In this document: positions 4,346-23,381 of the stretch, in pieces
Layout of the letters: each line of letters starts with the position of its first letter
Position numbering within the stretch: the first letter of the stretch is position 1
Source of the DNA: an uncultured Spirochaetales bacterium
GTDB lineage: Bacteria; Spirochaetota; Spirochaetia; Sphaerochaetales; Sphaerochaetaceae
Assembly (NCBI GenBank): GCA_944388965.1
Contig: CALXKL010000004.1
Location: forward strand, 62,001 to 126,000
DNA length: 64,000 bases
Direction: 5' to 3'
Program-made: the position numbers and the translations under genes
The notes under the pieces: generated by a model
The model's database searches: none
The model's input: only the letters and a program-made list of their open reading frames with translations
What the model was told of the DNA's origin: nothing

Positions 4346-6451
4346 TCAGAACCCGAAGGAGAGCTGGCCGGAGTCTCCGTCATCCTCCTTCCCTCCGTCG
4401 CCATCCCCGCTCCAGCCGAGCATGGACAGGAAACGCGCCTCGTCCACTATCTCGACCCCGAGCGCCTGGGCGCTCTGGCGCTTCGACCCGCCGCCCTTTC
4501 CGGCAAGCAGATGCGTCGTCTTTCCGGTTACCGACGATACAGTACGCGCCCCTCTCTTTTCAAGTTCCTTGAGCGCAAGGGTGCGCGGATTGAAATGCTC
4601 GAAGGAGCCGGTGACTGCCCACACCTGTCCCTGGAAGATCTGCTTCAGGGAGCTGCTCTCCTGTTTCTGGGAGAACTGCAGTCCGGCCTCCTCCAGCCGA
4701 CGGATCCGTCCCCTCATGTCCTCGTCCTGGAGCGCCGCGATTATCAGGTTGGCGGTCTGCGGCCCGATCTGGGGTATTCTGGTGAATGCCTCCACATCGT
4801 TGTCGTCGCTTGCCTTCAGCAGCTTGTCCATGGAATCGAATCCGCCCTTGACGAGAATCTCGGCACCCTTGCCCCCGACCTCCGGAAGACCCAGGGATGC
4901 CAGGACCGTGGCAAACGGCCTGTTCTTCGAGTCCTCGACCGCATCCTTGAAGGCCCTGACCATCTTCTCTCCATAGCCCTTCTCGCCTATGAGCCGGTCG
5001 TAGTCGCATGTGTACAGGTCGGGGATATCCTTGACGAGACCCATGTCGTATAGCTTGGCGATGGCCTTCGGGCCTATGGAGTCCATGTCCATCTGGTCAC
5101 GTGCCGTGAAGAACGCGATGCGCCCCTTGACCTGGTCCGGGCACTGTCTGTTAGGGCAGAAGAGATGGGCACCGCGCTTCTCCAGCACGCTCGAGCATGT
5201 GGGACAGGTGGACGGGATGACGAACGTGGTGTTGCCCTCGCCGTTCTTCTCGAGGACCTCCTCGACCGCAGGGATCACATCCCCCCTCTTCACGACGGAG
5301 ACGCTGTCGCCTATGGCGAGTTCGAGCTCGTCTATGTACTCCTGGTTGTGGAGCGTCGCACGTCTGACGGTGGAGCCGCCCAGAGCGACCGGCTCAAGCT
5401 CCGCCACCGGGGTTATGCGCCCGGTGCGCCCGACCTGGACGGTGACGCCAAGGACCTTCGTGACGGCCTGCGGGGACTCGAACTTGTATGCGATCGCCCA
5501 GCGGGGATGATGTTCCGTGTAGCCGAGGGCTTCGCGCACGTCGAGCTCGTTGACCTTGGTGACCATGCCGTCTATCTCGTATTCGAGGGAGCTCCGCCTG
5601 AGCGTAATCTCCTCCAGGTACGATGCCAGATCGCCGAACTCCAGGGCCCTCGCCTCGATGCCGGCCTCGGCAAGAAGCTTTTCGGACTCCTCACGCGATG
5701 AAGAGAAGAGCGCCAGATGCGGGTTTATCCTGAAGCCCAGCCTCCTGAGCTCGGCAAGAATCGCGAGATGGTTGGCCGGAGTCTCGCCTTCATCGCTCCA
5801 GAAGCCCTCGTAGACGAAGATGGTCAGCGGGATGGCGGCCGTCTCGCTGCTCTTCTGCCGCCTTACGGCCCCGGCGGCCATGTTGCGGGGATTGGCGACC
5901 TCCGGATCCGCCTCCTTGAGACGTTCGAAGTCCTTCTTCGCAAGGTACACCTCTCCACGCACGGCAAGGGTGACGGGGCTGGCCAGTCTGAGCGGCACGG
6001 CCCTGATGGTCTTTATGTTCTCGCTCACGTCGTTGCCGACATATCCGTTGCCGCGTGTCAGGGCACGGACGAAAAGCCCGTCTTCGTAATAGAGGACGAT
6101 GGAGATGCCGTCTATCTTCTCCTCCTCGACGAACGACAGCCGTGAAGAGGCGCTCTTCATCGTCTTGTCCATCCAGGAGACGACCTCCTGTGCGCTGTAT
6201 GCCTTGTCGAGCGAGAGGACGGGTATCGTATGGGAGACTTCGGGGAAGTCGCCGGTCAGATCGCTGCCCACACGGTTGGTGGGACTGGTGTCGCTCCTGA
6301 GCTCGGGATGGGCGCGCTCGATGCGCACCAGCTCGTCGAACCGGGCATCGTATTCCAGGTCGCTCATGATGGGCCTGCCATCCACGTAGTAGGCCTTCTG
6401 CGCAGCCAGCAGCTCGTCTGTGAGCCGGGCGGCTCTCCGTTTCAGATCCAT
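4346..6451 (-). CDS. ligA: NAD-dependent DNA ligase LigA
   Basis: A 701-residue ligase that seals nicks in replication and repair. Visible parts in order: the Ia domain with the YYVDG motif (21-25), the adenylation motif EKIDG with nucleophile Lys112, the OB fold (GRTGRITPVAELEPV), a four-cysteine zinc finger (CPTC..CPNRQC), helix-hairpin-helix repeats (PEVGGKGAEILV, IPQIGPQTANLI) and a C-terminal BRCT domain (WAVTGSFEHFNPR, GKTTHLLAG). The length is slightly above the usual 670. The frame is open further upstream, but the ATG at 6451 follows a -10 box by six bases and fits the conserved N-terminus. First gene of the ligA-pfk operon. Confidence 0.97.
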   Translation of the reverse strand: MDLKRRAARLTDELLAAQKAYYVDGRPIMSDLEYDARFDELVRIERAHPELRSDTSPTNRVGSDLTGDFPEVSHTIPVLSLDKAYSAQEVVSWMDKTMKSASSRLSFVEEEKIDGISIVLYYEDGLFVRALTRGNGYVGNDVSENIKTIRAVPLRLASPVTLAVRGEVYLAKKDFERLKEADPEVANPRNMAAGAVRRQKSSETAAIPLTIFVYEGFWSDEGETPANHLAILAELRRLGFRINPHLALFSSSREESEKLLAEAGIEARALEFGDLASYLEEITLRRSSLEYEIDGMVTKVNELDVREALGYTEHHPRWAIAYKFESPQAVTKVLGVTVQVGRTGRITPVAELEPVALGGSTVRRATLHNQEYIDELELAIGDSVSVVKRGDVIPAVEEVLEKNGEGNTTFVIPSTCPTCSSVLEKRGAHLFCPNRQCPDQVKGRIAFFTARDQMDMDSIGPKAIAKLYDMGLVKDIPDLYTCDYDRLIGEKGYGEKMVRAFKDAVEDSKNRPFATVLASLGLPEVGGKGAEILVKGGFDSMDKLLKASDDNDVEAFTRIPQIGPQTANLIIAALQDEDMRGRIRRLEEAGLQFSQKQESSSLKQIFQGQVWAVTGSFEHFNPRTLALKELEKRGARTVSSVTGKTTHLLAGKGGGSKRQSAQALGVEIVDEARFLSMLGWSGDGDGGKEDDGDSGQLSFGF

Positions 6452-6457
6452 GCTGGA

Positions 6458-6486
6458 AGTATAGCAGGAAAGGAGCCTTTGGTCAG
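6458..6486 (-). promoter_or_regulatory. ligA promoter, leaderless type
   Basis: Minus strand CTGACC (6486-6481), 17 bp, extended -10 TGC-TATACT (-10 at 6463-6458), then six bases to the ATG. There is no room for a ribosome site, so the mRNA probably begins at or next to the start codon. The -35 box overlaps the stop codon of the upstream flavoprotein gene. Confidence 0.65.
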
Positions 6487-7718
6487 TCGCCGTCCGCCCC
6501 GCACAGACCCCTGACGTACTCGTCCATGCTCCGGGCCACCTTCTTGGCGTAGCTGACCGCCTCGACGACGGTGTGGGCTCCGAGCACGACGTCACCGGCG
6601 GCGAAGATCCCCGCCCTGGTGGTCTCGCCCTTCTCGTCGGTGAGCAGAAGACCGTTCGGGCTCGGCTTCAGTCCCGCTGTCGTGTCGACCAGCTTGCTCT
6701 TGGGCCCCTGAGAGATCGCGATGAAGGTCGTGTCCGCCTCCACCGCCACCTCGCCGGGCTCCTCGCCTATGATGCGCCCCTCCTCGTCGAGGATCGTCCT
6801 GACGAACACCGGCCCGGTCTTCTCGATGCGCACGGGCTTCATGCGGAAAGCGAAGCGGGCACCCTCCAGCCTGGCGTACTCGACCTCCTCGAGGGCGGCT
6901 TCGCTGGCATCGCGCCGGGCGTAGATGGTGACCTCGTGGCGACCCTTCATGCGCAGGACCGTCCGTGCGACGTCCATCGCGGTGTTTCCGGCGCCTATGA
7001 TGGCGACTCTGGTTCCGACGTCGTATACCGACGGATTCACCAGGAAGTCGATGGCGAAGTGGACATTGCCCAGGCTCTCGCCCGCGATGCCGAGCTTCTT
7101 CGGTCTCCACACGCCCGTGCCGATGAAGATGGCCTTGTAGCCGTCTCTCAGCAGGTCGTCTATGACGAGGGCTCCTCCGATGGTCGTATTGGGCCGTATC
7201 CTGATGCCCATGGCCTCCAGCTTGGCCTTGTAGCGTTCCAGAATGGACTTGGGGAGACGGAACTCGGGGATGCCGTAGCGCAGCACCCCTCCGATTCCGT
7301 CGCGCGAATCGAAGATGGTGACGTCATAGCCCATGCGCCTCATCTCGATGGCTATCGTGAGTCCGGCGGGACCGCCGCCGATGACGGCGATCATGTTCCC
7401 GTTTTGAGGCATCATGTCGACCTCCACCGTGTCCAGGCAGGTCTCGCTGATGTAGTTCTCGATGGACGAGATGTGTATGCCCTGTCCCTTGCGCGAGAGC
7501 ACGCAGTGCCCTTCGCACTGTCTCTGGTGGTCGCACACCAGAGAGCACACGACAGAGAGCGGGTTGTTCTCGAACAGCATCCGTCCGGCATCCTGTACCC
7601 TGTTCTCCTTGAGCAGCGCTATCATCTCGGGAATCCTGGTGGAGATGGGGCAGCCCGTCATGCACTGCGGCTTCCTGCACTGGAGACATCTTCCGGCCTC
7701 CTCTATGACATGGATCAT
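6483..7718 (-). CDS. GltD-like NAD(P)/FAD iron-sulfur oxidoreductase
   Basis: A 411-residue flavoprotein related to the glutamate synthase small subunit. The N-terminal domain holds two cysteine groups (CLQCRKPQCMTGC from residue 11, and CSLVCDHQRQCEGHC near 58-72) that bind 4Fe-4S clusters. It is followed by the FAD motif GGGPAG (114-119) and a second dinucleotide motif GAGNTAMD (near 245). It moves electrons between NAD(P)H and a partner. No large glutamate synthase subunit is nearby, so glutamate synthesis is not assured; relatives serve as general NADPH-ferredoxin modules. GGAGG precedes the start. It diverges from the xanthine-dehydrogenase-like operon 94 bp away, which may be its redox partner (inference). 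Confidence 0.85.
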   Translation of the reverse strand: MIHVIEEAGRCLQCRKPQCMTGCPISTRIPEMIALLKENRVQDAGRMLFENNPLSVVCSLVCDHQRQCEGHCVLSRKGQGIHISSIENYISETCLDTVEVDMMPQNGNMIAVIGGGPAGLTIAIEMRRMGYDVTIFDSRDGIGGVLRYGIPEFRLPKSILERYKAKLEAMGIRIRPNTTIGGALVIDDLLRDGYKAIFIGTGVWRPKKLGIAGESLGNVHFAIDFLVNPSVYDVGTRVAIIGAGNTAMDVARTVLRMKGRHEVTIYARRDASEAALEEVEYARLEGARFAFRMKPVRIEKTGPVFVRTILDEEGRIIGEEPGEVAVEADTTFIAISQGPKSKLVDTTAGLKPSPNGLLLTDEKGETTRAGIFAAGDVVLGAHTVVEAVSYAKKVARSMDEYVRGLCGADGD

Positions 7719-7812: not shown

Positions 7813-9768
7813 ATGGCAGAACACATGCGAAACAGCCAGAACAGAAGCAACAAGTTCTACGGCACGCTGGTGAGCACGGGCATGGAGAACGTGAAGCTGA
7901 CGGGAATCGGACTGCCGGAGCTCAGCGACCGCTACTTCACGCTGCGTCGCAGCGACTTTGCCGGAGACTGCGTGCTGTCCGTGTTCGACGGGACGATACC
8001 CGTCCTCAGCGAGGAGAAGATACTCTACCCCCAGCAGGCCGTCATGGCCCTGTTCGGCCCTGACAACGAGTCGGTCAAGCTGCTTGCGCGCCAGGTGACC
8101 TTCGACACCGCGGAGCTCGAGAAGGACAACTCCCTGGCGCTTGAGGAAGGCATGTCGGACGAGCTGGGCATGGGAAGCGAGGTCGAGGACAGGTCCGAGC
8201 TGCGCCGTGTCGACTCCAGCATGCACAGCGCATCAGTGCAGTACGAATCGCCTGTGCTGATGGTCTGCGAATGCTGGCAGGAGGGCGAGAGGCTCCATAT
8301 CGAGGTGCCCACCCAGTGGCCTGCCCTCATAAGACGGAACGTCGCCGCACTGCTCTCCTGTCCCGAAGCGAATGTCGTGGTCCACCAGATGCCCTGCCAG
8401 AGCCGCCATGACGAATACCTGATCCCTCCGGCGATATACGCCTACGTCGGGGCGATGGCCACGATGAAGGCGGGGCTTCCGGTCGTGCTCACGGGACATG
8501 CGTATGCGGTGACCCCGGACATCAGGATCGAACGAAGCACGTACTGCAGCGAGGACGGACATCCGGTGTGCGAGGAATGCCGCATGACGGCCTCCCTCGG
8601 GGCGTTCTCCATCGCCGACGAGGAGTTCATCCGCCAGAGCCTGACCGGTCTGATACCGAACTATCCCCTGACCCATTTCCATGCCTCCGTCGAGGTGAGA
8701 CGCTCATCCACCTTCCCTTCCGTGTTCAACGATGGAGCAGGCTACCCGGAGGCCCTGGCCTCCAGCGAGAGGCAGGCCAATGCGATAGCCGATGCGTTCG
8801 AGACCCCACCGCCCCTGTGGAGGCGGCTGGTATGCACCTCCAGACGGCCGTTCACCGACCACATACCGTCCATAGACCTGGCACAGCTTGTCTCGCTGGG
8901 GGATGACATCGTCGACGAGTGCGACTTCAACAGGAAGTGGGCCTCGTACTCCACACAGAGGGACGACTACTCTCTCCTGTCGTTCAACAGGGGCGTCGGG
9001 ATGGCCATGGGCGTCTCCATAGCCGGCTTCTCCACCAGCATGGCCAAGGACTTCTGCGCACAGGCCAGGATAACGCTCACCGAGAAGAAGAACCTGACGC
9101 TGCTCACGTCCTTCCCCTCCGACGGAGCCTTCGACGCCCTCGTCTCGAAGGTCGTCGCCAGCGAAGTGGACCTGGAAGACGAGAAGGATGTGATAATCCT
9201 GGACAACGACGGCACGGCGACCGACTCGGGCCCTGACATGCTCCAGCGCCGGATGGGCCACTTCCCGGTCCAGCTGGCCAATGCATGCGCAAGACTCAAC
9301 CTCGAAAGGAAGGACGCGGCCCTGCCGCTGTCGATAGTCTTCGACACCGACGAGAAGCTCATGCCATGCGAATTCGAGCCCAGAGGCATGGCCTGGGTGA
9401 TCGTAGAGACACGTCTCGACGACATCTCCTTCACTCCGACGGTACTGGACGTATGGGTCTCCGTCATGGTCGATGCGAACATGCCGGAAAAGGATCTGGC
9501 GCTGTCCGTCCGCCGCCAGGTGGTGTCCACCCTGGTGGAGTGCGGGGCGACGCCCAGCACCTTTGCCCAGCACCCGTTCGGCGTGCACATAAGGCGTGTC
9601 GACTCGCTCTCGGGAGGCGTCACCAGCATCGATGCTGCGATGAAGGGGCTGGTGAAGGCCGCCTTCCAGGACTCAGTCAGGATGTGCATGTCGCTCGTCG
9701 GAGACGAACTTCCGCTCACGAGCGCGGCGATCGACAAGGCGTACAGGGCAAAGGAGGACGAGCAATGA
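7813..9768 (+). CDS. Xanthine dehydrogenase/aldehyde oxidase-like large subunit, degenerate
   Basis: A 651-residue protein recognisable as a molybdenum-hydroxylase large subunit mainly from its neighbours and from blocks such as SLLSFNRGVGMAMGVSIAG (about 387-405), which matches the GxGIAxG block. It is shorter than usual (about 750). The usual GGGFGGK pterin loop seems replaced by CQSRHDE (about 195-201), the RGFG loop by NDGAG (306-310), and the catalytic-Glu region near the C-terminus reads VGDELP (629-634). These alignments are by eye. Cofactor binding is therefore doubtful: the protein may be an inactive scaffold or bind something else. No molybdenum-cofactor genes are in the window. It is followed by the iron-sulfur and FAD subunits. 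Confidence 0.72.
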   Translation: MAEHMRNSQNRSNKFYGTLVSTGMENVKLTGIGLPELSDRYFTLRRSDFAGDCVLSVFDGTIPVLSEEKILYPQQAVMALFGPDNESVKLLARQVTFDTAELEKDNSLALEEGMSDELGMGSEVEDRSELRRVDSSMHSASVQYESPVLMVCECWQEGERLHIEVPTQWPALIRRNVAALLSCPEANVVVHQMPCQSRHDEYLIPPAIYAYVGAMATMKAGLPVVLTGHAYAVTPDIRIERSTYCSEDGHPVCEECRMTASLGAFSIADEEFIRQSLTGLIPNYPLTHFHASVEVRRSSTFPSVFNDGAGYPEALASSERQANAIADAFETPPPLWRRLVCTSRRPFTDHIPSIDLAQLVSLGDDIVDECDFNRKWASYSTQRDDYSLLSFNRGVGMAMGVSIAGFSTSMAKDFCAQARITLTEKKNLTLLTSFPSDGAFDALVSKVVASEVDLEDEKDVIILDNDGTATDSGPDMLQRRMGHFPVQLANACARLNLERKDAALPLSIVFDTDEKLMPCEFEPRGMAWVIVETRLDDISFTPTVLDVWVSVMVDANMPEKDLALSVRRQVVSTLVECGATPSTFAQHPFGVHIRRVDSLSGGVTSIDAAMKGLVKAAFQDSVRMCMSLVGDELPLTSAAIDKAYRAKEDEQ

Positions 9769-10262
9769 GGATAGAAGTCACGATCGACGGCAAGTTCCTG
9801 GCCTTATCGCTTTCCAGCGACAAGCCGCTGAACCTCCTTCTGATCGACGAGATGGGCACGCGTTCGATCAGGAACAGCTGCCGGGGAGGCATGTGCGGAA
9901 ACTGCATCGTCCTTCTGGACGGCAAGGCGGTCCTCTCATGTCTGGTGCCCGCCTTCGAGATACGCGAGCGGACGATCATGACGTTCGAGGGCTTCTCGCG
10001 CACCAGGGACTACAGGGACATAGAGAAGGCCTATGCGGCATGCGACATGCATCCCTGCGAGGCGTGCCATGCCTCGCGTACACTGCTGATAGAGAGCATC
10101 GTCAGGCGCCATGAGATGGCGGCAAGCGACTTCGACGAGGCCGAGATACTCCAGGAGTCGGCGCTGATCGACTGCCACTGCATGGACAGCGCGGGCTTCG
10201 TGGAGGTCGTGAGGGAGGCCCTGGCCAACAGGAGGAAGAGGAAGAATGTACGTAGAGCTTAG
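9765..10262 (+). CDS. Xanthine dehydrogenase-type 2Fe-2S small subunit
   Basis: This 165-residue electron-transfer subunit keeps both 2Fe-2S sites of the family. The plant-ferredoxin-type cluster has Cys39, Cys44, Cys47 and Cys59 (SCRGGMCGNC..LSC). The second, helical-domain cluster has Cys98, Cys101, Cys137 and Cys139 (CEAC and CHC). Full conservation contrasts with the degenerate large subunit. The ATG overlaps the upstream stop (ATGA) with AAAGGAGG before it, so translation is coupled. It would pass electrons between the large subunit and the FAD subunit. Confidence 0.87.
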   Translation: MRIEVTIDGKFLALSLSSDKPLNLLLIDEMGTRSIRNSCRGGMCGNCIVLLDGKAVLSCLVPAFEIRERTIMTFEGFSRTRDYRDIEKAYAACDMHPCEACHASRTLLIESIVRRHEMAASDFDEAEILQESALIDCHCMDSAGFVEVVREALANRRKRKNVRRA

Positions 10263-11166
10263 GTCCCCGAACATCCATGAGCCGGCCAGCATGACGGAGT
10301 ACAACAACACGATCGTCAACTACCGCGGCACGACACCCTTCCTGTGGGCCGGGGGGACCGAGATCATGAGCGAGCCCGACTTCTACCCCGCCCTGAGGGG
10401 GAACATGGAGATCATATCCCTGGACAGGATAGAGGAGCTCCATCACTTCCTGCGCAACGACCGCTATGCGGAGTTCGGGGCGATGGTGAGCATCAACGAG
10501 ATAGCCCAGGCCGGAAAGCTGGTCCTGCCGAAGATCCTGCTGGACACGATCAACGGCACGGCGACACGTACCATCAGGGAGCGCATCACCATAGGCGGCA
10601 GCCTGTGCACCAGACGGTTCAAGACGGCCCTGGCCTCCACGCTGATGATCCTCGACGCGGCCGTAGAGCTGAGATACATGAAGAAGAGGATGCATTCGAA
10701 GTGGTTCCAGATCTCGAGGATATACGACAAGGACGGCAGGCTCGACGTGCCTGCCGGGGCGCTTCTGAGCAAGGTCCGCATCGCGATCCAGCAGTACGAC
10801 TACCAGTACCTGCGTTCCGTGGGCTCCCCCGTGAAGGACCCCTGCGACGCCTGCACTCTCGCCATGGTCGCCCGCTTCGAGCAGAACAGCATATCGTACG
10901 CCAGGCTGATCTTCACCCTCCCGGACAGGGGCTTCTGCTACAGCAGGGACCTGGACAACATGATCACCAGCATGCAGCTTCCCGTGAACATCTCCAGATA
11001 CGCGCAGATAGAGAACTTCGTGATCGACCACATCAGGGAGGGCTTTGCCGACCTGTCGCCGCTGAGGGAGGACAGGCTGCGCGGCATGATCCACGACATG
11101 ATCAAGGACATCAACGAGCGCGTGCTCTCCTACACGGGACGCGACGTGGACAGGTTCAACGGTTGA
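10246..11166 (+). CDS. Xanthine dehydrogenase-type FAD-binding subunit
   Basis: This 306-residue protein matches the medium, FAD-binding subunit of molybdenum hydroxylases. It has LWAGGTEIM at 33-41 (the AGGTDL-type flavin motif) and TIGGSLC at 115-121 (the TIGGN-type motif). A CO-dehydrogenase flavoprotein C-terminal domain follows. Length is normal. Its start overlaps the 2Fe-2S gene by 17 bp, and a purine-rich ribosome site precedes it. Conserved flavin motifs suggest that the electron-transfer half of the complex still works. Confidence 0.85.
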   Translation: MYVELRSPNIHEPASMTEYNNTIVNYRGTTPFLWAGGTEIMSEPDFYPALRGNMEIISLDRIEELHHFLRNDRYAEFGAMVSINEIAQAGKLVLPKILLDTINGTATRTIRERITIGGSLCTRRFKTALASTLMILDAAVELRYMKKRMHSKWFQISRIYDKDGRLDVPAGALLSKVRIAIQQYDYQYLRSVGSPVKDPCDACTLAMVARFEQNSISYARLIFTLPDRGFCYSRDLDNMITSMQLPVNISRYAQIENFVIDHIREGFADLSPLREDRLRGMIHDMIKDINERVLSYTGRDVDRFNG

Positions 11167-11195: not shown

Positions 11196-12206
11196 TCAGC
11201 GGAAGATCGATGTGGATTCACGGATCATCAGCTCGCAGCCCAGATGTATGGACTCTATGTGCTCGTCATCCCCGTTTATCACCCGGACCAGCATCTCCAC
11301 GGCAAGAGTGCCCAGCTGGTCGAACGGCTGGCACACGGTGGTGATCGTGGGGTTCATCATCCTGCTGAACTGGATGTTGTCGAAGCCGACGACGGCCACG
11401 TCCTGCGGCACCCTGAGCCCTGCGGCGAGGGAGGCCTTGATCGCTGCGCATGCAAGGACATCGGATATGCAAAAGAAGGCATCCGGTCTGCCGGGCTGCG
11501 AGAGCATCCTCGTGACGTTCGCCACCGCGATGTCGTAGTCCATGTCCGCACCCACGGCGCAGATGATATCGTCGTCGATTGCAAAACCATGACTGACCAG
11601 CGCGTTCCGGTAGCCCTTGTAGCGCTCTTTCGAGTACTTGAACTCGGCGGGGCCGTTGATCAGGGCGATGCGGCGGCGCCCGAGGCTTATGAGGTACTTG
11701 ACCGCGTTCTCGCTGGCGCTCTCGTCATCGACCGTCACGTAGGGGACACCGGCCGTGGTCGCGGATTCACAGCAGGTCACCACAGGCACCACCTGTCTTA
11801 TCGTCTCGACAGTCTCGGGGACGATGGCGTTGGTCAGTATCACACCGGCCGCCCTGGAGGTCCGGATCAGGTCTATGAAGGACTGCAGGTCGGTCCCCAG
11901 CGGGTTCTCGTTGACAACCAGGTTGTAGCCGAAGCGCTTGGCCGTGCGTCTGGAGGCCTCTATTATCGGCGAGTAGAATGGGTTCTTCAGCGAGGGGACG
12001 TTGAAGATCAGCATGTTGTTCCTGGGCTGCGGCCGCAGATCCAGCGTCGAGGGGTCCACCCCCAGCTCGCGCAGCGCCTGGATGACGCGCGCCCTCTTCT
12101 CGTCGCTGACCGACTGCGATCGGTTGAACACCCTGGATATCGTGGCAATGGACAGTCCGCTCCTTTCAGCGATCGTCTGGTAGGAAAGCTTCGTCCTGTT
12201 GCTCAT
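11196..12206 (-). CDS. LacI-family transcriptional regulator
   Basis: A 336-residue regulator with the N-terminal LacI helix-turn-helix (SYQTIAERSGLSIATISRVFN, residues about 8-28), the hinge region and a periplasmic-binding-protein-like sensor domain containing the usual AAGVILTNA and VAVVGFDN blocks. It is the last gene of the sugar operon and likely controls it. Two perfect palindromes in the operon promoter region (19609-19623 and 19719-19731) are suitable LacI sites. The inducer is presumably the imported sugar or a product of it. The start follows AGGAGG at 10 bp. Confidence 0.9.
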   Translation of the reverse strand: MSNRTKLSYQTIAERSGLSIATISRVFNRSQSVSDEKRARVIQALRELGVDPSTLDLRPQPRNNMLIFNVPSLKNPFYSPIIEASRRTAKRFGYNLVVNENPLGTDLQSFIDLIRTSRAAGVILTNAIVPETVETIRQVVPVVTCCESATTAGVPYVTVDDESASENAVKYLISLGRRRIALINGPAEFKYSKERYKGYRNALVSHGFAIDDDIICAVGADMDYDIAVANVTRMLSQPGRPDAFFCISDVLACAAIKASLAAGLRVPQDVAVVGFDNIQFSRMMNPTITTVCQPFDQLGTLAVEMLVRVINGDDEHIESIHLGCELMIRESTSIFR

Positions 12207-12223
12207 CGCCTATCGTCCTCCTG

Positions 12224-13183
12224 TCATGACCCGACCGCCTCGGCAAGACGCAGGGCATGGACCACCTCGTCAGGGCACGAGGCAGGATCGCACCTGCCCT
12301 CGAGCGTGTCGACGATGCTCCTCAGCTCCTCGTAGTACCATCCAGTGGGAGGCACGTTGATGCCGGTCGATACGACTACAGGGTATTCGACAGGAAGGAC
12401 CTTTGCAACACCACCTTCGGGATAAAGCACGACTCCTGAAGGGGAGTTCACGATCACGGCATGCTCGAACACCGCACGCCATGTCGCCTCGAACGGGATA
12501 CAGGCATCCAGCCATCCGGACTCTATCAGGACCAGAGAACCTCCGGCGTCCCTGAAGGCCGCATGGTGATGGTTCCCTCCGCCACACGCACTCCACAGCA
12601 GCTCCACGGAGACGCCCAGGAGCGCGACCATCATGTCGATGTCGTGGATCATCAGGTCGAACGGGACCAGCCCGCTCCTGTCACGGTCCAGAAGCCAGGC
12701 CCCCTCGCTCCAGGCAGGCTTTTCGGAAAGCCTGGTGAAGCGCACCTCCTTCAGGCGTCCATATGCACCACCCTCCACGGCCTGTTTCAGCAGGGCGAAC
12801 TCCTTCGTGTAGCGGCACACAAGCGCCGGAATCAGCATGCGGCCTCGCCGATGCGCCTCCTCATACATGTCATATGCATCCCGGCTTGACAGCGCCAGGG
12901 GCTTTTCACATATCACGTCGCAATCCAGCGCCAGCGCCTGAAGGACGTTCTCGCGGTGCAGCCAGCTCGGCGTGGTGATGTCTATCGTGTCGATTCCGCA
13001 ATGACAGCGGACGGCATCCTCCATGTCGTCGTGGAAGTCAAGACCATGGGTCGCGGCGAACGCCCTGTCCGCATCCGTCTTTCCGACCACGGCAACGACC
13101 CGGGCCCTGTCGCCGAGGTATGCGTAGTTCGCCAGATGCACGCGCCCCATGCCGCCAAGGCCGACGAGCAGTATGTTCCTCAT
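12224..13183 (-). CDS. Gfo/Idh/MocA-family oxidoreductase
   Basis: A 319-residue NAD(P)-dependent sugar or polyol dehydrogenase. The Rossmann motif VGLGGMG lies at 6-12, and the family signature CEKPLA is near 96-101 with the catalytic-type Lys. The open frame continues upstream to 14224, but that part is antisense-like composition over a real gene. The ATG at 13183 overlaps the upstream stop by 4 bp (ATGA), which fixes the start. It is the second dehydrogenase of the operon. Substrate unknown; operons with two such dehydrogenases and two TIM-barrel isomerases often handle inositols or 3-keto sugars. Confidence 0.87.
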   Translation of the reverse strand: MRNILLVGLGGMGRVHLANYAYLGDRARVVAVVGKTDADRAFAATHGLDFHDDMEDAVRCHCGIDTIDITTPSWLHRENVLQALALDCDVICEKPLALSSRDAYDMYEEAHRRGRMLIPALVCRYTKEFALLKQAVEGGAYGRLKEVRFTRLSEKPAWSEGAWLLDRDRSGLVPFDLMIHDIDMMVALLGVSVELLWSACGGGNHHHAAFRDAGGSLVLIESGWLDACIPFEATWRAVFEHAVIVNSPSGVVLYPEGGVAKVLPVEYPVVVSTGINVPPTGWYYEELRSIVDTLEGRCDPASCPDEVVHALRLAEAVGS

Positions 13184-13995
13184 AGCACGTACCCCAGGTG
13201 CCTCAGGTATTCGCCGCTGCGTCTGACGGCATCGTCCACCTCCGCCAGATCCTTCGCTCCGCAGGAGGTGAACTCGATCTCGATGGACAGCGGGCTGTGG
13301 TTGCCGGCCCTGTCCAGAACCGAGAGTATAGACGGGAAGTCGACATATCCATCGCCAAGGGCGGGGAAGTTCCACTCGGTCCTCTCTCCGGCCTTGTCCT
13401 TGATGTGGACATAGTCGATCAGGTCCGCATTGGCCTCTACATCCTCCACGCCCTTGACGTCGCCGTAGAAGATGGCGTTGGCCGTGTCGTAACAGATACC
13501 CACGCGGGGGCTGGAGACCAGGTCGACTATCGATGCCAGCCTCGTGGCCGTCCCGTGCTCCCCATGTGTCTCCAGCACCAGATTCATGTCGTACTTCTCG
13601 AGCAGGGGAAGGAAGGTGCGGATGTTCGAGGCCACCAGATCGTCGCCTGCGCTGGTCCTGTCCTTCAGATGGGCCTCCCCTACGCTGGAGACGATGACCG
13701 GGGCCGAGAAAAAATGTGCAACCTCGATGTTGTCCACGAAATCGGCGATGCGCTCCTCGTCCATGAGATTGACATGGCCGCTCATGGCGACGACCGTCAG
13801 ACCCGCCTCCTCGAGAAGCCTTCGGGTCCTCAGTAGACGCGACAGGCTCATGTCCGGGAAGACGTGCTCCGTCCACCCCTTCGTCGCAGTGAGCTCGATC
13901 GCATGGAAGCCGGCGGCCACGATGCCGTGGACGGCCTCCTCGATCGAATAGCCGTGGTAGCAGTTGGAATTTACCGCGATTGTCCTGGGCAGCAT
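13180..13995 (-). CDS. Sugar phosphate isomerase/epimerase-like TIM barrel (AP_endonuc_2)
   Basis: A 271-residue xylose-isomerase-like TIM barrel. Metal-binding-type residues are seen in VLETHGEHG (about 140-148), ICYDTANAIFYG (about 168-179) and DYVHIKDK (about 194-201), the usual Glu/Asp/His pattern. It probably isomerises or dehydrates a sugar or keto-inositol in the cytoplasm. GGGAGG precedes the ATG. It sits 12 bp after another TIM-barrel gene of the same superfamily, to which it is only distantly similar. Confidence 0.85.
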   Translation of the reverse strand: MLPRTIAVNSNCYHGYSIEEAVHGIVAAGFHAIELTATKGWTEHVFPDMSLSRLLRTRRLLEEAGLTVVAMSGHVNLMDEERIADFVDNIEVAHFFSAPVIVSSVGEAHLKDRTSAGDDLVASNIRTFLPLLEKYDMNLVLETHGEHGTATRLASIVDLVSSPRVGICYDTANAIFYGDVKGVEDVEANADLIDYVHIKDKAGERTEWNFPALGDGYVDFPSILSVLDRAGNHSPLSIEIEFTSCGAKDLAEVDDAVRRSGEYLRHLGYVL

Positions 13996-14007
13996 GTCGG
14001 GCCTCCC

Positions 14008-14922
14008 TCAGATGACGAAGTTGCGCATGTAGCGGTACGTGATCTCCACGGAAGCCTCGACCCTTTTGCGGCTGCCCTCGTATGCCTTGTCCTCGATCTC
14101 GACACAGGCATCCCCGTCGTAGCCGCATTCGGTGAGCGCGCTTACGAACGCGCCCCAGTCGACATCGCCGAGTCCGGGAAGCTTGGGTGTCATGTAGTCC
14201 AGGGGGTATGCCATCACGCCGCACTCGGCAAGTCTGTCAGGATGCAGCTTGATGTCCTTGAAGTGCACATGGAAGAACCTGTCATGGAAGTCCCAGACCG
14301 CCTTGACGTAGTCCATGCCCTGCCAGATGAAGTGGCTCGGGTCGAAGTTCAGCCCGAAGTTGTCATAGTCGAGCAGAGCGAACATCCTCCTCCAGATCGC
14401 CGGAGAGGTGAAGATGTTCTGTCCACCGGGCCACTGGTCGGGGCCGAAGAGCATCGGACAGTTCTCGATGCCTATCCGCACTCCACGCTCCTTCGCATAC
14501 TTCAGGATCGGATCCCATGTCTTCACGGCCAGTTCGATGCTATCGTCGACCGTCATGTTCTGGTCGCGTCCGATGAAGGTGTTGACCAGGTTCACGCCGA
14601 GCTTCGCGGCTGCATCGATGCAGGCGTATATGTGTCTTATCGCGGCTTCGCTCCTGGCCTTGTCCGCATCCAGCGGGTTGGGATAGTAGCCGAGCGCCGA
14701 TATCCTCATGCCATGGCCGGACACATAGTCCAGAATGTACTTCGCCTTCGCATCGTCCAGGTTCGCCACATCGATATGGCTTACGCCGGCATAGCGACGC
14801 TCCGCCTTGCCCTGCGGCCAGCAGGCGACCTCCACGCATTCGTACCCCACCCTTGAGGCGTGGTCGATCATCTCCTCGAACGTATATCCGTCATAGATCG
14901 CACTGAGAATTCCAAGCTTCAT
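14008..14922 (-). CDS. Sugar phosphate isomerase/epimerase-like TIM barrel
   Basis: A 304-residue member of the xylose-isomerase-like superfamily. Recognisable blocks are YECVEVACWPQG near residue 27, GIENCPM (about 151-157, metal Glu), LNFDPSHFIWQG (about 193-204) and FHVHFKDIKL (about 219-228). The start has AAAGGAGG eight bases upstream. Within the operon it follows the first dehydrogenase and precedes the second isomerase. Relatives act on keto-inositol or related ring sugars; the exact substrate is unknown. Confidence 0.86.
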   Translation of the reverse strand: MKLGILSAIYDGYTFEEMIDHASRVGYECVEVACWPQGKAERRYAGVSHIDVANLDDAKAKYILDYVSGHGMRISALGYYPNPLDADKARSEAAIRHIYACIDAAAKLGVNLVNTFIGRDQNMTVDDSIELAVKTWDPILKYAKERGVRIGIENCPMLFGPDQWPGGQNIFTSPAIWRRMFALLDYDNFGLNFDPSHFIWQGMDYVKAVWDFHDRFFHVHFKDIKLHPDRLAECGVMAYPLDYMTPKLPGLGDVDWGAFVSALTECGYDGDACVEIEDKAYEGSRKRVEASVEITYRYMRNFVI

Positions 14923-14940
14923 GTCTTCTCCTCCTTTACA

Positions 14941-15972
14941 TCACGGCTCTATCTCGACTCTTCTGCCGGTACTTGCGCTTTCCAATGCCGCGAAGACCGC
15001 CTTCATGGCAGGAAGCACGCTCGTCGCATCGATCGGACAAGTTCGCTTCTCGATGGAATCCAGGAAACAGTCGATGACACCGCTCGACGTCTGGTTGTCG
15101 TTGGTCTGTATCGCATCCAGCTCGTACAGCTCGCGCGTGCCGTCCCGCCTTTCTATCACGATGGAGTATGCAGGGTCGACATAGATCTTCATCACGCCCT
15201 CGCTGCCGTCTATGCGTGTGCTGTTGTCCTCGCATCCGTAGTCGGTCCAGCTGGCGCACATGGTGCCGATGGCTCCTCCCGCCATCTCGAATATGCACAT
15301 CGCGTTGTCGTCGACCGGTATGAGCGAGCCCGAGGCATCCCTCTTGTCGATGGTCGTGACGGATGCGCTGACGGCCTTGACCGTGTCATCCAGCAGGAAG
15401 TCGATCAGGTCCGTCTTGTGGATGCCCAGATCCGCCATGGCACCCATCACCGCCTTCTTCCGGTCGAAGAACCACGTGTTCCTGCCCGGATCCACGGACC
15501 AGGTCTCCGGGCCGCAGTGGGCGAAGCGCGTGGCGAACGTCAGCGGCCGGCCGATGGCCCCGCTGCGGATCAGCTCATGGGCCTTCACATGCGTCGCGGT
15601 GAGACGCTGGTTCTGGCCGATCATGAGTATGCGTCCGCTCCTCGCGGCGGCATCGACCATCGCCTGGCAATCCTCCAGAGAAGTCGCCATGGGCTTCTCG
15701 CACAGCACGTCCAGCCCCTTGTCCAGAGCCCTGACGGCATACTCGGCATGCGTATGGTTCGCCGTGCAGATGCTCACCGCATCGAGCTTCTGGTCGAGAA
15801 GCTCGTCTATGCTCGAGCAGGCCCTGGCACCATACCTTTCCGCAAGGCCTGCCGCCCGCTCTGCGTTGATATCGTACAAGGCGGCTATCTCCGCCCTGCC
15901 GCTTGCGATGTACTCCGGGATGTGACGCACCTGGGCGATCTTCCCGCATCCGATGATTCCTATTCTGTACAC
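14941..15972 (-). CDS. Gfo/Idh/MocA-family oxidoreductase
   Basis: A 343-residue NAD(P)-dependent dehydrogenase with the nucleotide motif IGCGKIAQ (7-14), the CEKPMAT signature (about 91-97) and a catalytic segment MGAMADLGIHKTDL (about 179-192) whose Asp and His fit the active site of inositol 2-dehydrogenase relatives. The start is a GTG with GAGGAGG upstream. It is the first catabolic gene after the transporter, as expected for the enzyme that oxidises the imported substrate. Confidence 0.88.
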   Translation of the reverse strand: MYRIGIIGCGKIAQVRHIPEYIASGRAEIAALYDINAERAAGLAERYGARACSSIDELLDQKLDAVSICTANHTHAEYAVRALDKGLDVLCEKPMATSLEDCQAMVDAAARSGRILMIGQNQRLTATHVKAHELIRSGAIGRPLTFATRFAHCGPETWSVDPGRNTWFFDRKKAVMGAMADLGIHKTDLIDFLLDDTVKAVSASVTTIDKRDASGSLIPVDDNAMCIFEMAGGAIGTMCASWTDYGCEDNSTRIDGSEGVMKIYVDPAYSIVIERRDGTRELYELDAIQTNDNQTSSGVIDCFLDSIEKRTCPIDATSVLPAMKAVFAALESASTGRRVEIEP

Positions 15973-15982
15973 GTCCGCCTCC

Positions 15983-17029
15983 TCAAACCTTCTCCTTCTT
16001 CTGCAGAAGGACGGCCACTATGACGATGACTCCCTTGAACGCCTCCCTGAGGAACGGAGGGACCCCAAGCAGGTTCAGCAGGTTGTTGACCACCGCGATG
16101 ATGAGGACGCCGAGCACGGTTCCGGCGATCGTGCCCTTTCCTCCCGCCATGCTCGTCCCGCCGACGATGACCGCGGCGATTGCATCCATCTCATAGCCGC
16201 TTCCGGCGTTGGCGTAGTCCATGGAGCCGATCCTGGAGACCTGCAGGACGCTGGCGATGGCGACCAGGGCGCCCATGATGGTGTATACCGTCCTCTTGAC
16301 CGCCTGCGTGTTGATTCCGGACAGCTTGGCGGCCTTCTCGTTCGAGCCTATCGCATAGACATGGCGACCGAAGGCCGTGTGCCTGCTTATGTAGTGCATG
16401 ATGAACGCGATGACCAGCCAGTAGATGATCGGCATGAACATCTGGCCGCCGACAGACAGGTTCGCGATCTGGGTGAAGCCGCGCGGCACCGACGGATTGA
16501 CAGTCTGCATGCATTGCTGCGTGACCGACCGGCAGATGTTCATCATGCCGAGCGTCGCGATGAACGGCGGCAGCTTGCCAACCGTGATCAGGAGTCCCGT
16601 GACCTGCCCCAGGGCCAGGCCGACGACGATTCCGACCAGGATTCCGATGACATACGCCGGAGCGCCGGTGATGCCGAGCGACGTCAGAAGCCCGGTGGTG
16701 CTGCCGTCGATGAAGATCATCACCACGGCACCCACGGCAACCAGCGTGCTTCCGACGGCAAGGTCGATTCCACCGGTTATGATGACGAACGTCATGCCAA
16801 GTGCGATGATGCCTATCGTGGCGTTGTTCCTGAGTATGTTCAGCCAGTTGCGCGTCCACAGGCTGAGCCAGCCGAGGAAGCTGCCCTGGTCGAACCCGAG
16901 GGCGATGGTCTGCAGCACTATCATCACGACCAGTGCGCACAGGGTCGAGAACAGCGGGCGCTGCGACCACTGTCTTGTGAACCAGGCGACCGGCCTGGCA
17001 GATGCAATCGATTCAAGTCTATCCGTCAT
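15983..17029 (-). CDS. RbsC-type sugar ABC transporter permease
   Basis: A 348-residue inner-membrane permease of the ribose/inositol class, with about eight to ten hydrophobic segments and the typical blocks IGIIALGMTFVIITGGIDLAVG and YVIGILVGIVVGLALGQVTG. It forms the channel with the RbsA-like ATPase and receives substrate from the RbsB-like protein. The ATG overlaps the ATPase stop by 4 bp. No specificity can be read from the sequence. Confidence 0.92.
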   Translation of the reverse strand: MTDRLESIASARPVAWFTRQWSQRPLFSTLCALVVMIVLQTIALGFDQGSFLGWLSLWTRNWLNILRNNATIGIIALGMTFVIITGGIDLAVGSTLVAVGAVVMIFIDGSTTGLLTSLGITGAPAYVIGILVGIVVGLALGQVTGLLITVGKLPPFIATLGMMNICRSVTQQCMQTVNPSVPRGFTQIANLSVGGQMFMPIIYWLVIAFIMHYISRHTAFGRHVYAIGSNEKAAKLSGINTQAVKRTVYTIMGALVAIASVLQVSRIGSMDYANAGSGYEMDAIAAVIVGGTSMAGGKGTIAGTVLGVLIIAVVNNLLNLLGVPPFLREAFKGVIVIVAVLLQKKEKV

Positions 17030-18513
17030 TGTTCCTCAACTCCTGTAGCAAGTCTCATGATCTCCTTCTCGCTCATCTGCCCTGCGGACAGACAGTCCAT
17101 TATCCTGCCGTGGTACATGACGTAGCAGCGTGATGCGACCCTCATGACCTCCTGGGCCTCGCTGGACAGGACGACCACCGCCACGCCGCGCTGCGCAAGG
17201 GAAAGGATTATCTCGTAGATCTCCTCCTTGGCCCCGACGTCCACTCCCTGCGTGGGATTGTCGAGGATCAGGACTCTCGGCTGTGCGCTCAGCCACCTGG
17301 CGAGGACCACCTTCTGCTGGTTGCCCCCCGAAAGAGAGGTTATCGGGTCGTCCTCCCCGTCCATCTTTATCCTCAGTGCACGCCGCTGTGCCTGGAACTC
17401 CTCCTCCAGCCTGTCCTCGTCCATGAAGAACAGGCCCTTCCGCCTTGACGACATGGTGGCGAGCGAACCGTTCTCGAAGATGGTCATGTCCTTGACGATT
17501 CCGTTCTCCTTCCTGTTGCGCGGGACATAGCCGATGCCGAGTCCCACGGCCTGGCTGGTGGTCTTCACATGCACCTCGGACCCCTCGAGCAGCAGCTGGC
17601 CACTCGTGAAGCGCCCGGCTCCGAACACCGCCTGGAAAAGCTCGCTGCGACCATCGCCGAGAAGGCCGGTGAAACCCACGACCTCACCCTTGTGGACACA
17701 GAACGAGATGTCGGAGAAATGTCTTCCGTCCCCGAGGCCGCGGCCTTCCAGCACGAGAGGTCCTATCTCGGATGCCGTCCTGGTATGCTCGACGACGTCA
17801 TGGCCGACCATGAACGATGCGAGCCGGCTGCTCGTGACGTCCTTCACGAGACCGCTTGCGACCATCCTGCCATCCCTGAGGACCGTGTAGCTGTGGCAGA
17901 TGTCCATGACCTCGTTCAGCTTGTGGCTGATGAATATGATTCCCACACCCTGGCGGGAGAGCGTGCGCATCATCGCGAACACGCGCTCGATCTCCGGGTC
18001 GGTGAGGCTTGTGGTTGGTTCGTCCATGATGACCAGCCGGGCGTTCATCAGCATCGCCCTGCTGATCTCGACAATCTGCTTATAGGAAGCGTCGAGGTCG
18101 CGGACCATGGTGCGGGGATCGAGGTCCAGGTCCATCCGCTGGAAGACCTCCTCCGTCGCCCTGATCATCGCCTCGTGGTCCAGGAGGCGGCCGCGCCTCC
18201 TGATCTCCCTTCCTATGAACAGGTTCTCGTATATCGCAAGATCGTTGATGAGATTCAGCTCCTGGTGGATGAACGCGATCCCCGCCTCGAGGCTGTCCTT
18301 CGGACTGGAGAACGATACGCTCCTCCCGTCCAGGAATATCTGTCCTCCGTTTGCGTCTATCACGCCGCCCAGGATGTTCATGAGAGTGGACTTGCCGGCA
18401 CCGTTCTCGCCAAGCAGGGCCTTGATCTCACTGCCTTCGAGAGTGAAGTCCACCCCGTCGAGGACGAGGTTTGTCGAGAAAGACTTGGAGATGTTCCTCA
18501 TTTCAAGATTCAT
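17026..18513 (-). CDS. RbsA-type sugar ABC transporter ATP-binding protein
   Basis: A 495-residue protein with two fused ABC domains. The first has Walker A GENGAGKST (35-43), and Walker B VIMDEPTTSLT. The second has the shortened Walker A GLLGDGRSE usual for this class and the signature SGGNQQKVVLARW. It powers uptake of a monosaccharide or polyol. GGAGG precedes the ATG. It follows the binding-protein gene by 69 bp containing a strong hairpin. Confidence 0.94.
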   Translation of the reverse strand: MNLEMRNISKSFSTNLVLDGVDFTLEGSEIKALLGENGAGKSTLMNILGGVIDANGGQIFLDGRSVSFSSPKDSLEAGIAFIHQELNLINDLAIYENLFIGREIRRRGRLLDHEAMIRATEEVFQRMDLDLDPRTMVRDLDASYKQIVEISRAMLMNARLVIMDEPTTSLTDPEIERVFAMMRTLSRQGVGIIFISHKLNEVMDICHSYTVLRDGRMVASGLVKDVTSSRLASFMVGHDVVEHTRTASEIGPLVLEGRGLGDGRHFSDISFCVHKGEVVGFTGLLGDGRSELFQAVFGAGRFTSGQLLLEGSEVHVKTTSQAVGLGIGYVPRNRKENGIVKDMTIFENGSLATMSSRRKGLFFMDEDRLEEEFQAQRRALRIKMDGEDDPITSLSGGNQQKVVLARWLSAQPRVLILDNPTQGVDVGAKEEIYEIILSLAQRGVAVVVLSSEAQEVMRVASRCYVMYHGRIMDCLSAGQMSEKEIMRLATGVEEQ

Positions 18514-18538
18514 GCTTCACCTCCTGCTCTTTTCATGA

Positions 18539-18570: not shown

Positions 18571-18582
18571 CATGGAGCCTGA

Positions 18583-19922: not shown

Positions 19923-22900
19923 ATGAGCGAACAGGACACGGCGATGGAGACCACGCCCAGAAGCGGCTTCATCCACCTTCACAACCATACCGACTTCTCG
20001 CTGCTGGACGGAGCGGCCCAGATTCCTTCATACATCGCCCGGTGCAAGGAATGCGGCATGGATGCACTGGCCATCACCGACCACGGCAACATGTACGGCG
20101 CGCTGAAGTTCTACAAGGCATGCAAGGCGGCAGGCATCAAGCCCATCATAGGAAGCGAGTTCTACATGAACCCCCGCGACAGAAGGGACACGAGCCCGAT
20201 GTCGGAGGGGCATAACCACATGTACCATCTGATCCTTCTGGCGATGAACGACAACGGCTACCACCACCTGATGGAGCTCACCACGCTTGCCAACACCGAG
20301 GGCTTCTACTACAAGCCCAGGATCGACGACGAGATACTGGCGAGCCACAGCGACGACCTGATCTGCCTGTCGGCATGTCTGGGAGGCGAGATCCTGCAGA
20401 ACCTGCTCAACGACCAGTGGGAAACGGCGAAGGAGCGGGCTGCATGGTTCAAGTCCGTCTTCGGCGACAGGTACTACCTCGAGTTGCAGGACCACGGACT
20501 CGAGGAGCAGAAGCGCACAAACCCGATGCTCGTGCGCCTTTCGAAGGAGCTCGACATCCCGCTGGTGTGCACCAACGACATCCACTACATAAGCCGTGAG
20601 GACGCCAACGCCCAGGACACGCTGCTTTGCATCGGCACCAACGCACGCAAGAGCGACGAGAAGCGCATGCGCTTCCCCAACGACAACTTCTACTTCAAGA
20701 GCGAGGAGGAGATGCGCAACCTCTTCTCATGGTGTCCCCAGGCCATAGAGAACACCCGCGTCATCGCCGACAGGTGCAACCTGGAGGTGAAGTTCCCCGG
20801 CCCTCTCCTGCCCGACTACGAGATTCCCGAGGGTTTCAAGGACACCGGTGAATACCTGGTGCACCTGTCGCACGAAGGCTGCATCCGCCGATACGGAGAG
20901 ATCACCGAGGCGCTGCAGAAGAGGCTGGACCACGAGCTGGAGATCATCCTCAAGATGAAGTTCGACGGCTACTTCCTCATCGTGCGCGACTACATCTACT
21001 GGGCCAAGACCCACGACATCCCGGTAGGCCCGGGGCGCGGCTCGGGAGCCGGCTCGCTGGTGGCCTACTGCGTCGACATCACGGACGTCGACCCGATCAA
21101 GTACAACCTGCTGTTCGAGCGATTCCTGAACCCCGAACGCGTCTCGATGCCCGACTTCGACATCGACTTCTGCTTCGAACGCCGCGGCGAGGTCATCCAG
21201 TACGTGACCGAGCACTACGGCAAGGACCGCGTCGGCCAGATCTGCACCTTCGGTACGCTGAAGGCGAAGGCGGTCGTCAAGGACGTGGCCCGCGTGCTCG
21301 ACATCCCCTACGACGAGTCGAACATGATCTGCAAGCTGATTCCCGACGAGCCGAAGATGACCATCGCGAAGGCCATAGCGCAGGAGCCGAAGCTGCAGGA
21401 GATCATCGCGCGTGGCGGAGTGTACGAGGAGCTGTTCGACACGGCCCGCCGTCTGGAAGGCGGAGCGAGGCACACCTCGCTGCATGCCGCAGGCGTTGTC
21501 ATCGGCAAGACCGACCTGATCGACTACGTGCCCATCTCATACGACCCGAAGACGCGTTCGATCGCGACCCAGTACACGATGGACCAGATCGAGGAGTGCG
21601 GTCTGGTGAAGATGGACTTCCTGGGCCTCAAGACGCTGACGCTGATCAAGCACACCGTCGACCTGATACACAAGAAGGACCCCTCCTTCGACATCAACCA
21701 CATCGACGAGGAGGACAAGGCGACCTTCGACATGCTCAAGCGCGGCGAGAGCGAATGCGTCTTCCAGTTCGAATCGGGAGGCATGCAGAAGGTCCTCAAG
21801 GACGCGCAGCCGGAGACGATCGAGGACCTGGTCGCATTGAACGCCCTCTACCGCCCGGGCCCGATGCAGTACATCGACCGCTTCGTCGCCTGCAAGAACG
21901 GCCTGCAGCCGATCGAGTACGCCGACCCGGAGCTGGAGAGCGTGCTCAAGACCACCTACGGGGTCATAGTCTACCAGGAGCAGGTCATGCAGGTGGCCCA
22001 GATAATCGCGGGATACTCTCTCGGCCAGGCCGACATCCTCAGACGAATCATGGGCAAGAAGAAGGTCGAGAAGCTGGCCGAGGAAAAGGTCAAGTTCGTG
22101 GCCGGCGCCGTGAAGCTCGGCCGTGACGCGAAGCATGCCGAGGAGATCTTCGAGATGCTGGAGCCCTTCGCCCAGTACGGCTTCAACAAGTCGCATGCGG
22201 TGGCCTACTCCATCGTCGCCTACCAGACGGCATACCTGAAGGCAAACCACCCCTCCGAGTTCCTTGCGGCCAACCTGACCAACGAGATGACCAACCCGGA
22301 TAAGTTCAAGGACTACCTCGCCCTTGCCGACAGCATGGGCATAAGGATCCTGCCGCCGTCGATCAACGACTCCGACATGCACTTCAACGTCGTGGACGGC
22401 GACATCGTCTACGGACTTGCGGGAATCAAGAACGTCGGAGAGAGCATCACCCGCATCATCGTCGAGGAGCGCGAGAGAAACGGCAGGTACAAGGACTTCA
22501 TGGACTTCCTGGCACGGCAGCCCGACGGCATCATCAACGGCCGCCTCATGGAGAACCTGATCAAGGCCGGATGCTTCGACTGCATGGGCTATGACAGGGC
22601 GACGCTCATGGCCAACCTGGATGCCGCGATAACCTTCGACAAGGGCAGACGCGAGACGACGGCCTACGGCCAGATATCCCTGTTCGGGGACGACGTCGAG
22701 CTGGGCAGCTTCGAGTTCCGCCCCGCCCAGCCATGGAGCAAGCGCGAGATGCTGGACATGGAGAAGGAGCTCATCGGTCGCTATGTCTCGGGCCATCCGC
22801 TGGACGGATTCAAGGAGGACATCGAGCGCTGTGTCTGGGTCGACATATCCAAGCCGGAGGAGCTGCCACTCGACAGGGACGTGTCGCTGATCTGCCAGGT

Positions 22901-23381
22901 GTCCGGTCTGAGGGTGCTCAGGACGAAGAAGGGCACCCACATGGCCACGATGACGCTGACCAACATGCAGGGCTCGATGGAGGCGGTGCTCTTCCCAAAG
23001 GACTGGGAGAAGTACGAGGACAAGGTGGCCGACGACGGCATCTACGGCTTCGTGGGCCGCTTCGACAGGAGGCGGGACAGGGGCGACGAGGTGCAGTTCG
23101 TGATATCGGCGATCTGCGAACCGCGGGAGCTGCCCAGCGAGGCCATAAGGAGGGTGTCGCTGTCGATCGACTCCGCCGCACTTGCTGAACAGTCCGGGGG
23201 GCAGTATCTTTCACAGGTGGTATCGTTCCTCATAGAGCATTCGGGAAGCCTTCCGGTGACCGTGTTCCTCGACGACAGGAGACACGAATACGTGAAGTCA
23301 TCCTTCAGCGTCGACTTCTACAAGGGCATGAAGAAGGACCTGATGTCGTTCCCGATAGTGAAGAACGTATACCTGTCATAG
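19923..23381 (+). CDS. dnaE: DNA polymerase III alpha subunit
   Basis: The replicative polymerase, 1152 residues, of normal DnaE1-type length. It begins with the PHP domain (HLHNHTDFSLLDGA, about 18-31). The catalytic palm has PDFDIDF with the two metal Asp residues (near 413), and GRGSGAGSLVAYC before it. The finger, helix-hairpin-helix and OB-fold regions follow. The C-terminus is short. The ATG at 19923 has only a -10 box upstream; a second in-frame ATG at 19944 has AGGA before it and is an alternative. No neighbouring replication genes. Confidence 0.97.
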   Translation: MSEQDTAMETTPRSGFIHLHNHTDFSLLDGAAQIPSYIARCKECGMDALAITDHGNMYGALKFYKACKAAGIKPIIGSEFYMNPRDRRDTSPMSEGHNHMYHLILLAMNDNGYHHLMELTTLANTEGFYYKPRIDDEILASHSDDLICLSACLGGEILQNLLNDQWETAKERAAWFKSVFGDRYYLELQDHGLEEQKRTNPMLVRLSKELDIPLVCTNDIHYISREDANAQDTLLCIGTNARKSDEKRMRFPNDNFYFKSEEEMRNLFSWCPQAIENTRVIADRCNLEVKFPGPLLPDYEIPEGFKDTGEYLVHLSHEGCIRRYGEITEALQKRLDHELEIILKMKFDGYFLIVRDYIYWAKTHDIPVGPGRGSGAGSLVAYCVDITDVDPIKYNLLFERFLNPERVSMPDFDIDFCFERRGEVIQYVTEHYGKDRVGQICTFGTLKAKAVVKDVARVLDIPYDESNMICKLIPDEPKMTIAKAIAQEPKLQEIIARGGVYEELFDTARRLEGGARHTSLHAAGVVIGKTDLIDYVPISYDPKTRSIATQYTMDQIEECGLVKMDFLGLKTLTLIKHTVDLIHKKDPSFDINHIDEEDKATFDMLKRGESECVFQFESGGMQKVLKDAQPETIEDLVALNALYRPGPMQYIDRFVACKNGLQPIEYADPELESVLKTTYGVIVYQEQVMQVAQIIAGYSLGQADILRRIMGKKKVEKLAEEKVKFVAGAVKLGRDAKHAEEIFEMLEPFAQYGFNKSHAVAYSIVAYQTAYLKANHPSEFLAANLTNEMTNPDKFKDYLALADSMGIRILPPSINDSDMHFNVVDGDIVYGLAGIKNVGESITRIIVEERERNGRYKDFMDFLARQPDGIINGRLMENLIKAGCFDCMGYDRATLMANLDAAITFDKGRRETTAYGQISLFGDDVELGSFEFRPAQPWSKREMLDMEKELIGRYVSGHPLDGFKEDIERCVWVDISKPEELPLDRDVSLICQVSGLRVLRTKKGTHMATMTLTNMQGSMEAVLFPKDWEKYEDKVADDGIYGFVGRFDRRRDRGDEVQFVISAICEPRELPSEAIRRVSLSIDSAALAEQSGGQYLSQVVSFLIEHSGSLPVTVFLDDRRHEYVKSSFSVDFYKGMKKDLMSFPIVKNVYLS

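Follow-up and report, generated by a model that had tools for sequence, protein, structure and literature searches.

A xanthine dehydrogenase-fold complex of the Spirochaetia, probably free of molybdenum

What is a xanthine dehydrogenase-like operon kept for when its large subunit has lost the residues that bind molybdenum? The question is raised by three genes in a window of 64,000 nucleotides, the whole stretch of DNA analysed here, from an uncultured Spirochaetales bacterium. They encode an XdhA/MoCoBD-like large subunit (7813..9768, +, 651 aa), a 2Fe-2S subunit (9765..10262, +, 165 aa) and an FAD subunit (10246..11166, +, 306 aa). The large-subunit and 2Fe-2S genes overlap by ATGA at 9765 and the 2Fe-2S and FAD genes by 17 bases at 10246, an arrangement resembling that of a translationally coupled operon. 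The original prediction had read the locus as an intact pair of electron-transfer subunits beside a degenerate molybdenum subunit, and had expected a new activity or a redox scaffold rather than simple decay.

The large subunit and its former molybdenum site

At the level of domains the operon matches the molybdenum hydroxylases, as XdhABC, PucCDE and 4-hydroxybenzoyl-CoA reductase are likewise built from three genes, with FAD_binding_5 and Fer2/Fer2_2 subunits. In the window, Pfam assigns Fer2 to the small subunit, FAD_binding_5 to the third (66 bits) and to the large subunit only MoCoBD_1, as a weak and partial match of 36.7 bits, while no NCBIfam model reaches its cut-off for any of the three. 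Used as a single sequence, the large subunit found no matches in the PDB with phmmer, and AlphaFold with a four-sequence input gave a pLDDT of 41.5. The family profile matched only molybdenum hydroxylases in the PDB, and a profile of the window's relatives aligned with that of canonical spirochaete XdhA in hhalign (100 %, E 4e-53, 623 columns). Judged by these profiles, the large subunit is genuinely homologous to XdhA over its full length.

As a yardstick we used a canonical XdhA encoded elsewhere in the window's genome (L032:13486-15681, -), which aligns with bovine xanthine oxidase and has all motifs present. In the alignment of the two proteins, canonical TTGGAFGGKEHF is replaced by PCQSRHDEYLIP in the window, SDAFRGFGAPQ by SVFNDGAGYPE, LCGQTEMGQGF by LTSFPSDG-AF, TAASRS by DMLQRR, HGQVNGG by ALSVRRQ and KGMGEL by TSIDAA. 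Thus GGAFGGKE, FRGFG, MGQG, TAASRS, HGQV and GMGEL are all lost, and the Gln of TQWP, the equivalent of bovine Gln767, is kept. This agrees with the earlier reading that the pterin loops GGGFGGK and RGFG are unrecognizable and the C-terminal Glu region altered, and a complete cofactor site, one of the findings that would have spoken against that reading, does not appear in the aligned sequence.

The loss extends well beyond the window. Among 79 non-redundant family members, compared with 36 canonical rows, the cofactor-binding loops GGxFGGK, FRGFG, MGQG and GQ survive only as scattered single positions: the Gly of the fourth loop is present in 3/79 against 36/36, the Arg880-like residue in 2/79 against 34/36, and the Gln of GQV in 2/79 against 35/36, a difference far beyond chance. 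Two other positions have fared better, the Gln767-like residue being kept in 54 of the 79 members and the Glu1261-like residue, absent in the window, in 18 (canonical: 35/36). Some members thus retain a portion of the old pocket, which weighs against a molybdenum-free complex. The remaining Glu residues belong mostly to Treponema-like and deep lineages, which suggests that the Glu was lost later than the loops.

Distribution, gene order and constraint

How old is this degenerate form, and is it decaying? Of 61 related genomes, 55 were matched in a search with the window protein, canonical paralogues accounting for some of the weak matches, and a profile search matched 226 of the 393 genomes of the phylum. 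As the profile matches mix degenerate and canonical proteins, and the score on profile A2 is insufficient by itself to tell family members from canonical XdhA, residues were read locus by locus. Inside the class, every large subunit retrieved from the operon was degenerate, and the profile matches retrieved from outside the class were canonical; a contig scan with the single window protein matched only close relatives. The complex spans the class Spirochaetia except for family f19, Borrelia-like by its genome size of 0.9-1.8 Mb, in whose listed genomes it is absent, and a few other genomes. In a tree of the large subunits, quickly made and with several long branches, so that only the split between family and canonical proteins is used, the family occupies one side of a branch with an SH-aLRT of 100 against 21 canonical XdhA sequences. 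The complex thus differs from the known molybdenum hydroxylases in forming a separate clade, in lacking the cofactor ligands and, in the window, the catalytic Glu, and in reaching no NCBIfam cut-off.

Gene order is conserved along with the complex. Across the class the core reads [capD-degT]-large subunit-FeS-FAD-dnaE-yggT-recG, and in the deep families it extends to ligA, a SPOR-domain protein, wzz, a NusG-like gene, capD, degT, the three operon genes, dnaE, yggT, recG and rsmD. The window's family has no capD or degT at the locus and retains ligA (here 4346..6595, -), as do several other families of the class, and dnaE (19923..23381, +), which is followed by yggT (23392-23973) and recG (23975-25996). 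In the window this ancestral downstream neighbour is displaced by about 8.8 kb, and the stretch at 11196-19700 is an insertion, as most relatives have dnaE next to the FAD gene. It carries a LacI-type regulator as well as sugar-epimerase/oxidoreductase-like and transporter-like genes, assigned by reading only. In the deep families the operon is immediately preceded by the NusG-like gene (L044:5578-6126, +, and its equivalents) together with wzz, capD and degT, which suggests antitermination of the operon's transcription unit.

Could the operon nevertheless be the decaying remnant of a molybdenum hydroxylase, as the loss of its catalytic residues and of the cofactor pathway might indicate? The matches in relatives contain no internal stop codons, and in each of the three genes close pairs give a Nei-Gojobori dN/dS of 0.04-0.20; some pairs are near synonymous saturation, and the low-divergence pairs L007/L008 and L043/L055 agree. 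Purifying selection acts on every subunit of the complex. Together with the conserved gene order and the presence across the class, these open frames and low ratios lead us to reject decay as scarcely conceivable, as the original prediction had already judged. As the molybdenum site was lost long ago and the genes are nevertheless intact in most of the class, the complex must do some other job.

Cofactor supply and the electron path

Is there any molybdenum cofactor for the complex to use? The window's genome (97 % complete) yielded no MoaA C-terminal domain, MoaC or MoeA_N in searches in which control genomes behaved as expected, and so the proposed search for moaA and moeA ended in their absence. 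MogA/MoaB-type MoCF is missing as well, the single MoCF_biosynth match sitting in a CinA-length frame. More widely, the degenerate protein is the only MoCoBD_1 protein in 24 of 27 complex-bearing genomes checked, many of them closed (in four of the 24 it shows as two fragments of one frame). MoeA was found in none of these 24, none of them is MoaC-positive, and MoeA is missing from 30 of the 31 genomes checked. In this the complex again differs from the molybdenum hydroxylases, being kept where cofactor synthesis is not. Given the loss of the molybdenum ligands and the retention of the complex without MoeA or any other MoCoBD_1 protein, it very probably has no need of molybdenum.

A complication comes from the window's genome itself (G000), which encodes three canonical molybdenum hydroxylases despite the lack of a detectable cofactor pathway: the yardstick XdhA and the proteins at L031:8523-11075 and G000:C3:195686-196411, all on the minus strand. 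The cofactor may thus be imported there, which counts against a molybdenum-free reading. The situation recurs in the closed genomes G017 and G397, so that each of the three has three or four canonical molybdenum hydroxylases, with intact cofactor motifs where read, and neither MoaC nor MoeA; G000 and G017 have no MoaA or MogA either. These organisms may take up the cofactor, or a precursor of it, from outside; alternatively, the genes for its synthesis escaped detection. SelD-like and XdhC/CoxI-like genes lie near the canonical hydroxylases in the window's genome.

One could imagine that the large subunit still belongs to a true hydroxylase, or to another enzyme, with a non-canonical mode of binding for the molybdenum cofactor or some other one. 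The surviving Gln767-like and Glu1261-like residues, the constraint on the large subunit and the other hydroxylases of the window's genome would all fit such an enzyme. We consider it improbable, because the pterin loops, Arg880, MGQG and GQV are lost throughout the family and the complex persists in genomes without MoeA or another molybdenum hydroxylase. That the complex is both molybdenum-free and maintained by selection is a claim we hold with high confidence.

What, then, of the remaining cofactors? In the window the 2Fe-2S subunit keeps all eight Cys as ligands for two clusters (CRGGMCGNC...SCL and CEAC...CHC), and the FAD subunit keeps both flavin motifs, WAGGTE and TIGGSL, exactly as first described. 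The accompanying notion of a preserved electron path holds for the window's family, the Sphaerochaetaceae, where 29 of 30 members have the eight Cys, and fails for the class, where the path has been broken repeatedly and at different points: all eight are present in 61 of the 79 family members, and at least one is missing in the other 18. The N-terminal cluster has lost its ligands in G114 (all four Cys), G322, G395/G371 and members of f12; G186 and G036 have lost the ligands of both clusters, and a group of g49 genomes has lost one C-terminal ligand. G114 is apparently Treponema pallidum Nichols, G186 Spirochaeta africana and G036 Parasphaerochaeta coccoides; the genomes analysed presumably also include T. 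denticola (G220), T. primitia (G266) and Sediminispirochaeta smaragdinae (G060). The FeS subunit genes at L033:11856-12410 (+) and L065:7262-7798 (+) are open although nearly all their cluster Cys are gone. The GG of FAD motif 2 is kept in 75/78, and motif 1 is more variable. Flavin features are therefore retained best, with FAD motif 2 the most constant of all, Fe-S features next and molybdenum features worst. With 18 of 79 members lacking Fe-S ligands, an unbroken electron path cannot explain why every lineage retains the complex, and the class-wide function must be compatible with cluster loss.

This repeated loss invites the view that the complex has no redox turnover whatever and survives purely as a scaffold or as a regulatory pseudoenzyme, whether its role is structural, in binding or in flavin sensing, and perhaps tied to envelope-glycan synthesis. 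The operon stays in place where the N-terminal cluster (G114) or both clusters (G186, G036) are gone, and the wzz, NusG-like, capD and degT genes that were linked to it ancestrally would account for the glycan connection. However, eight Cys in nearly all of the window's family make little sense without a redox use there, FAD motif 2 is kept almost everywhere, and the locus of the window's family has neither capD nor degT. We regard such a scaffold as the less likely reading, while giving it more weight than any other alternative.

The same linkage could be read differently, with the complex as an E3-like electron donor for a neighboring DegT that acts as a PMP/2Fe-2S sugar 3-dehydrase, since in most families other than the window's the gene immediately before that of the large subunit is degT. 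Yet DegT proteins with a readable motif keep the aminotransferase lysine (SFYATKxITTGEGG), several lineages have lost Fe-S Cys and still keep degT, and the window's family has no degT at the locus, all of which makes this role very improbable. Such an E1/E3 CDP-sugar 3-dehydrase system would call for a DegT-fold partner that lacks the PLP lysine, and we reject it because the readable DegT motifs have this residue.

A proposed flavin-centered function and its significance

Our analysis favors, with moderate confidence, a scenario in which the class keeps an ancestral, vertically inherited complex of the xanthine dehydrogenase fold that is free of molybdenum and has a flavin-centered core, with a new, selected function retained even in the highly reduced genome G114, while individual lineages strip the Fe-S clusters successively. 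The heterotrimer would assemble as xanthine dehydrogenase does, without the molybdenum cofactor. A precedent is recombinant rat xanthine oxidoreductase without molybdopterin, which was isolated as a dimer and crystallizes (PMC4832347), so that the cofactor is not necessarily required for assembly; this protein, too, combines the xanthine dehydrogenase fold with FAD and Fe-S and no molybdenum. The rat protein is a laboratory apo-form with an intact molybdenum site, whereas the spirochaete complex would represent an evolved loss.

FAD would be the core cofactor of the trimer, to which two 2Fe-2S clusters are presumably added in the window's lineage, making it an NAD(P)H/FAD/2Fe-2S electron-transfer unit, most likely diaphorase-like; for this particular role we see the chances as evenly balanced. 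Electrons would be exchanged with a protein or small-molecule partner, possibly bound by the remodeled large subunit, and lineages without clusters could retain only the flavin or scaffold part of the function. An alternative partner may be the divergently oriented GltD/NfnB-like NAD(P)H flavoprotein with Fer4_20 (6483..7718, -, 411 aa), whose gene lies 94 bases from the operon and, by the loci read (one of them cut at a contig end), adjoins it in 8 of the 16 genomes of the genus. We regard it as a possible candidate only, and our confidence in naming any partner is very low.

The idea of a redox carrier on a molybdenum-enzyme scaffold has a parallel in the NuoG-like domains of complex I and in StnC, where such a fold is reused as an electron conduit, StnC also carrying a GltD-like NADPH module (PMC10482914). 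The parallel is one of analogy, as their superfamily is formate dehydrogenase-like and the large subunit studied here xanthine dehydrogenase-like. In the open-licence literature we found no paper describing a molybdenum-free xanthine dehydrogenase-like complex of spirochaetes. If our interpretation is correct, a molybdenum hydroxylase complex would here have been kept in nature beyond the loss of its metal site, a case that can be compared with NuoG in complex I, and its lineages would make successive degrees of cofactor loss accessible to study.

The complex also bears on an existing annotation. TPASS_0079 and TPASS_0081 of T. pallidum are described as parts of a 'xanthine dehydrogenase' by bioinformatic annotation only (PMC5951579), and a search of the open-licence literature for TP0080 or 'quinoline 2-oxidoreductase' in T. 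pallidum gave no matches. The annotation fits the order at the G114 locus, capD-degT-large subunit-FeS-FAD, and if G114 is indeed T. pallidum these proteins belong to the same family, with the same gene order, as the window complex, differing from it in the loss of the four N-terminal Fe-S Cys. Going by its residues and cofactor genes, with no MoeA and the complex as its only MoCoBD_1 protein, G114 does not support a molybdoprotein. If the scenario holds, the T. pallidum proteins that bear this annotation are probably devoid of molybdenum activity, and their survival of genome reduction would point to an unrecognized flavin-dependent or structural function in spirochaete pathogens, apparently including the bacterium of syphilis.
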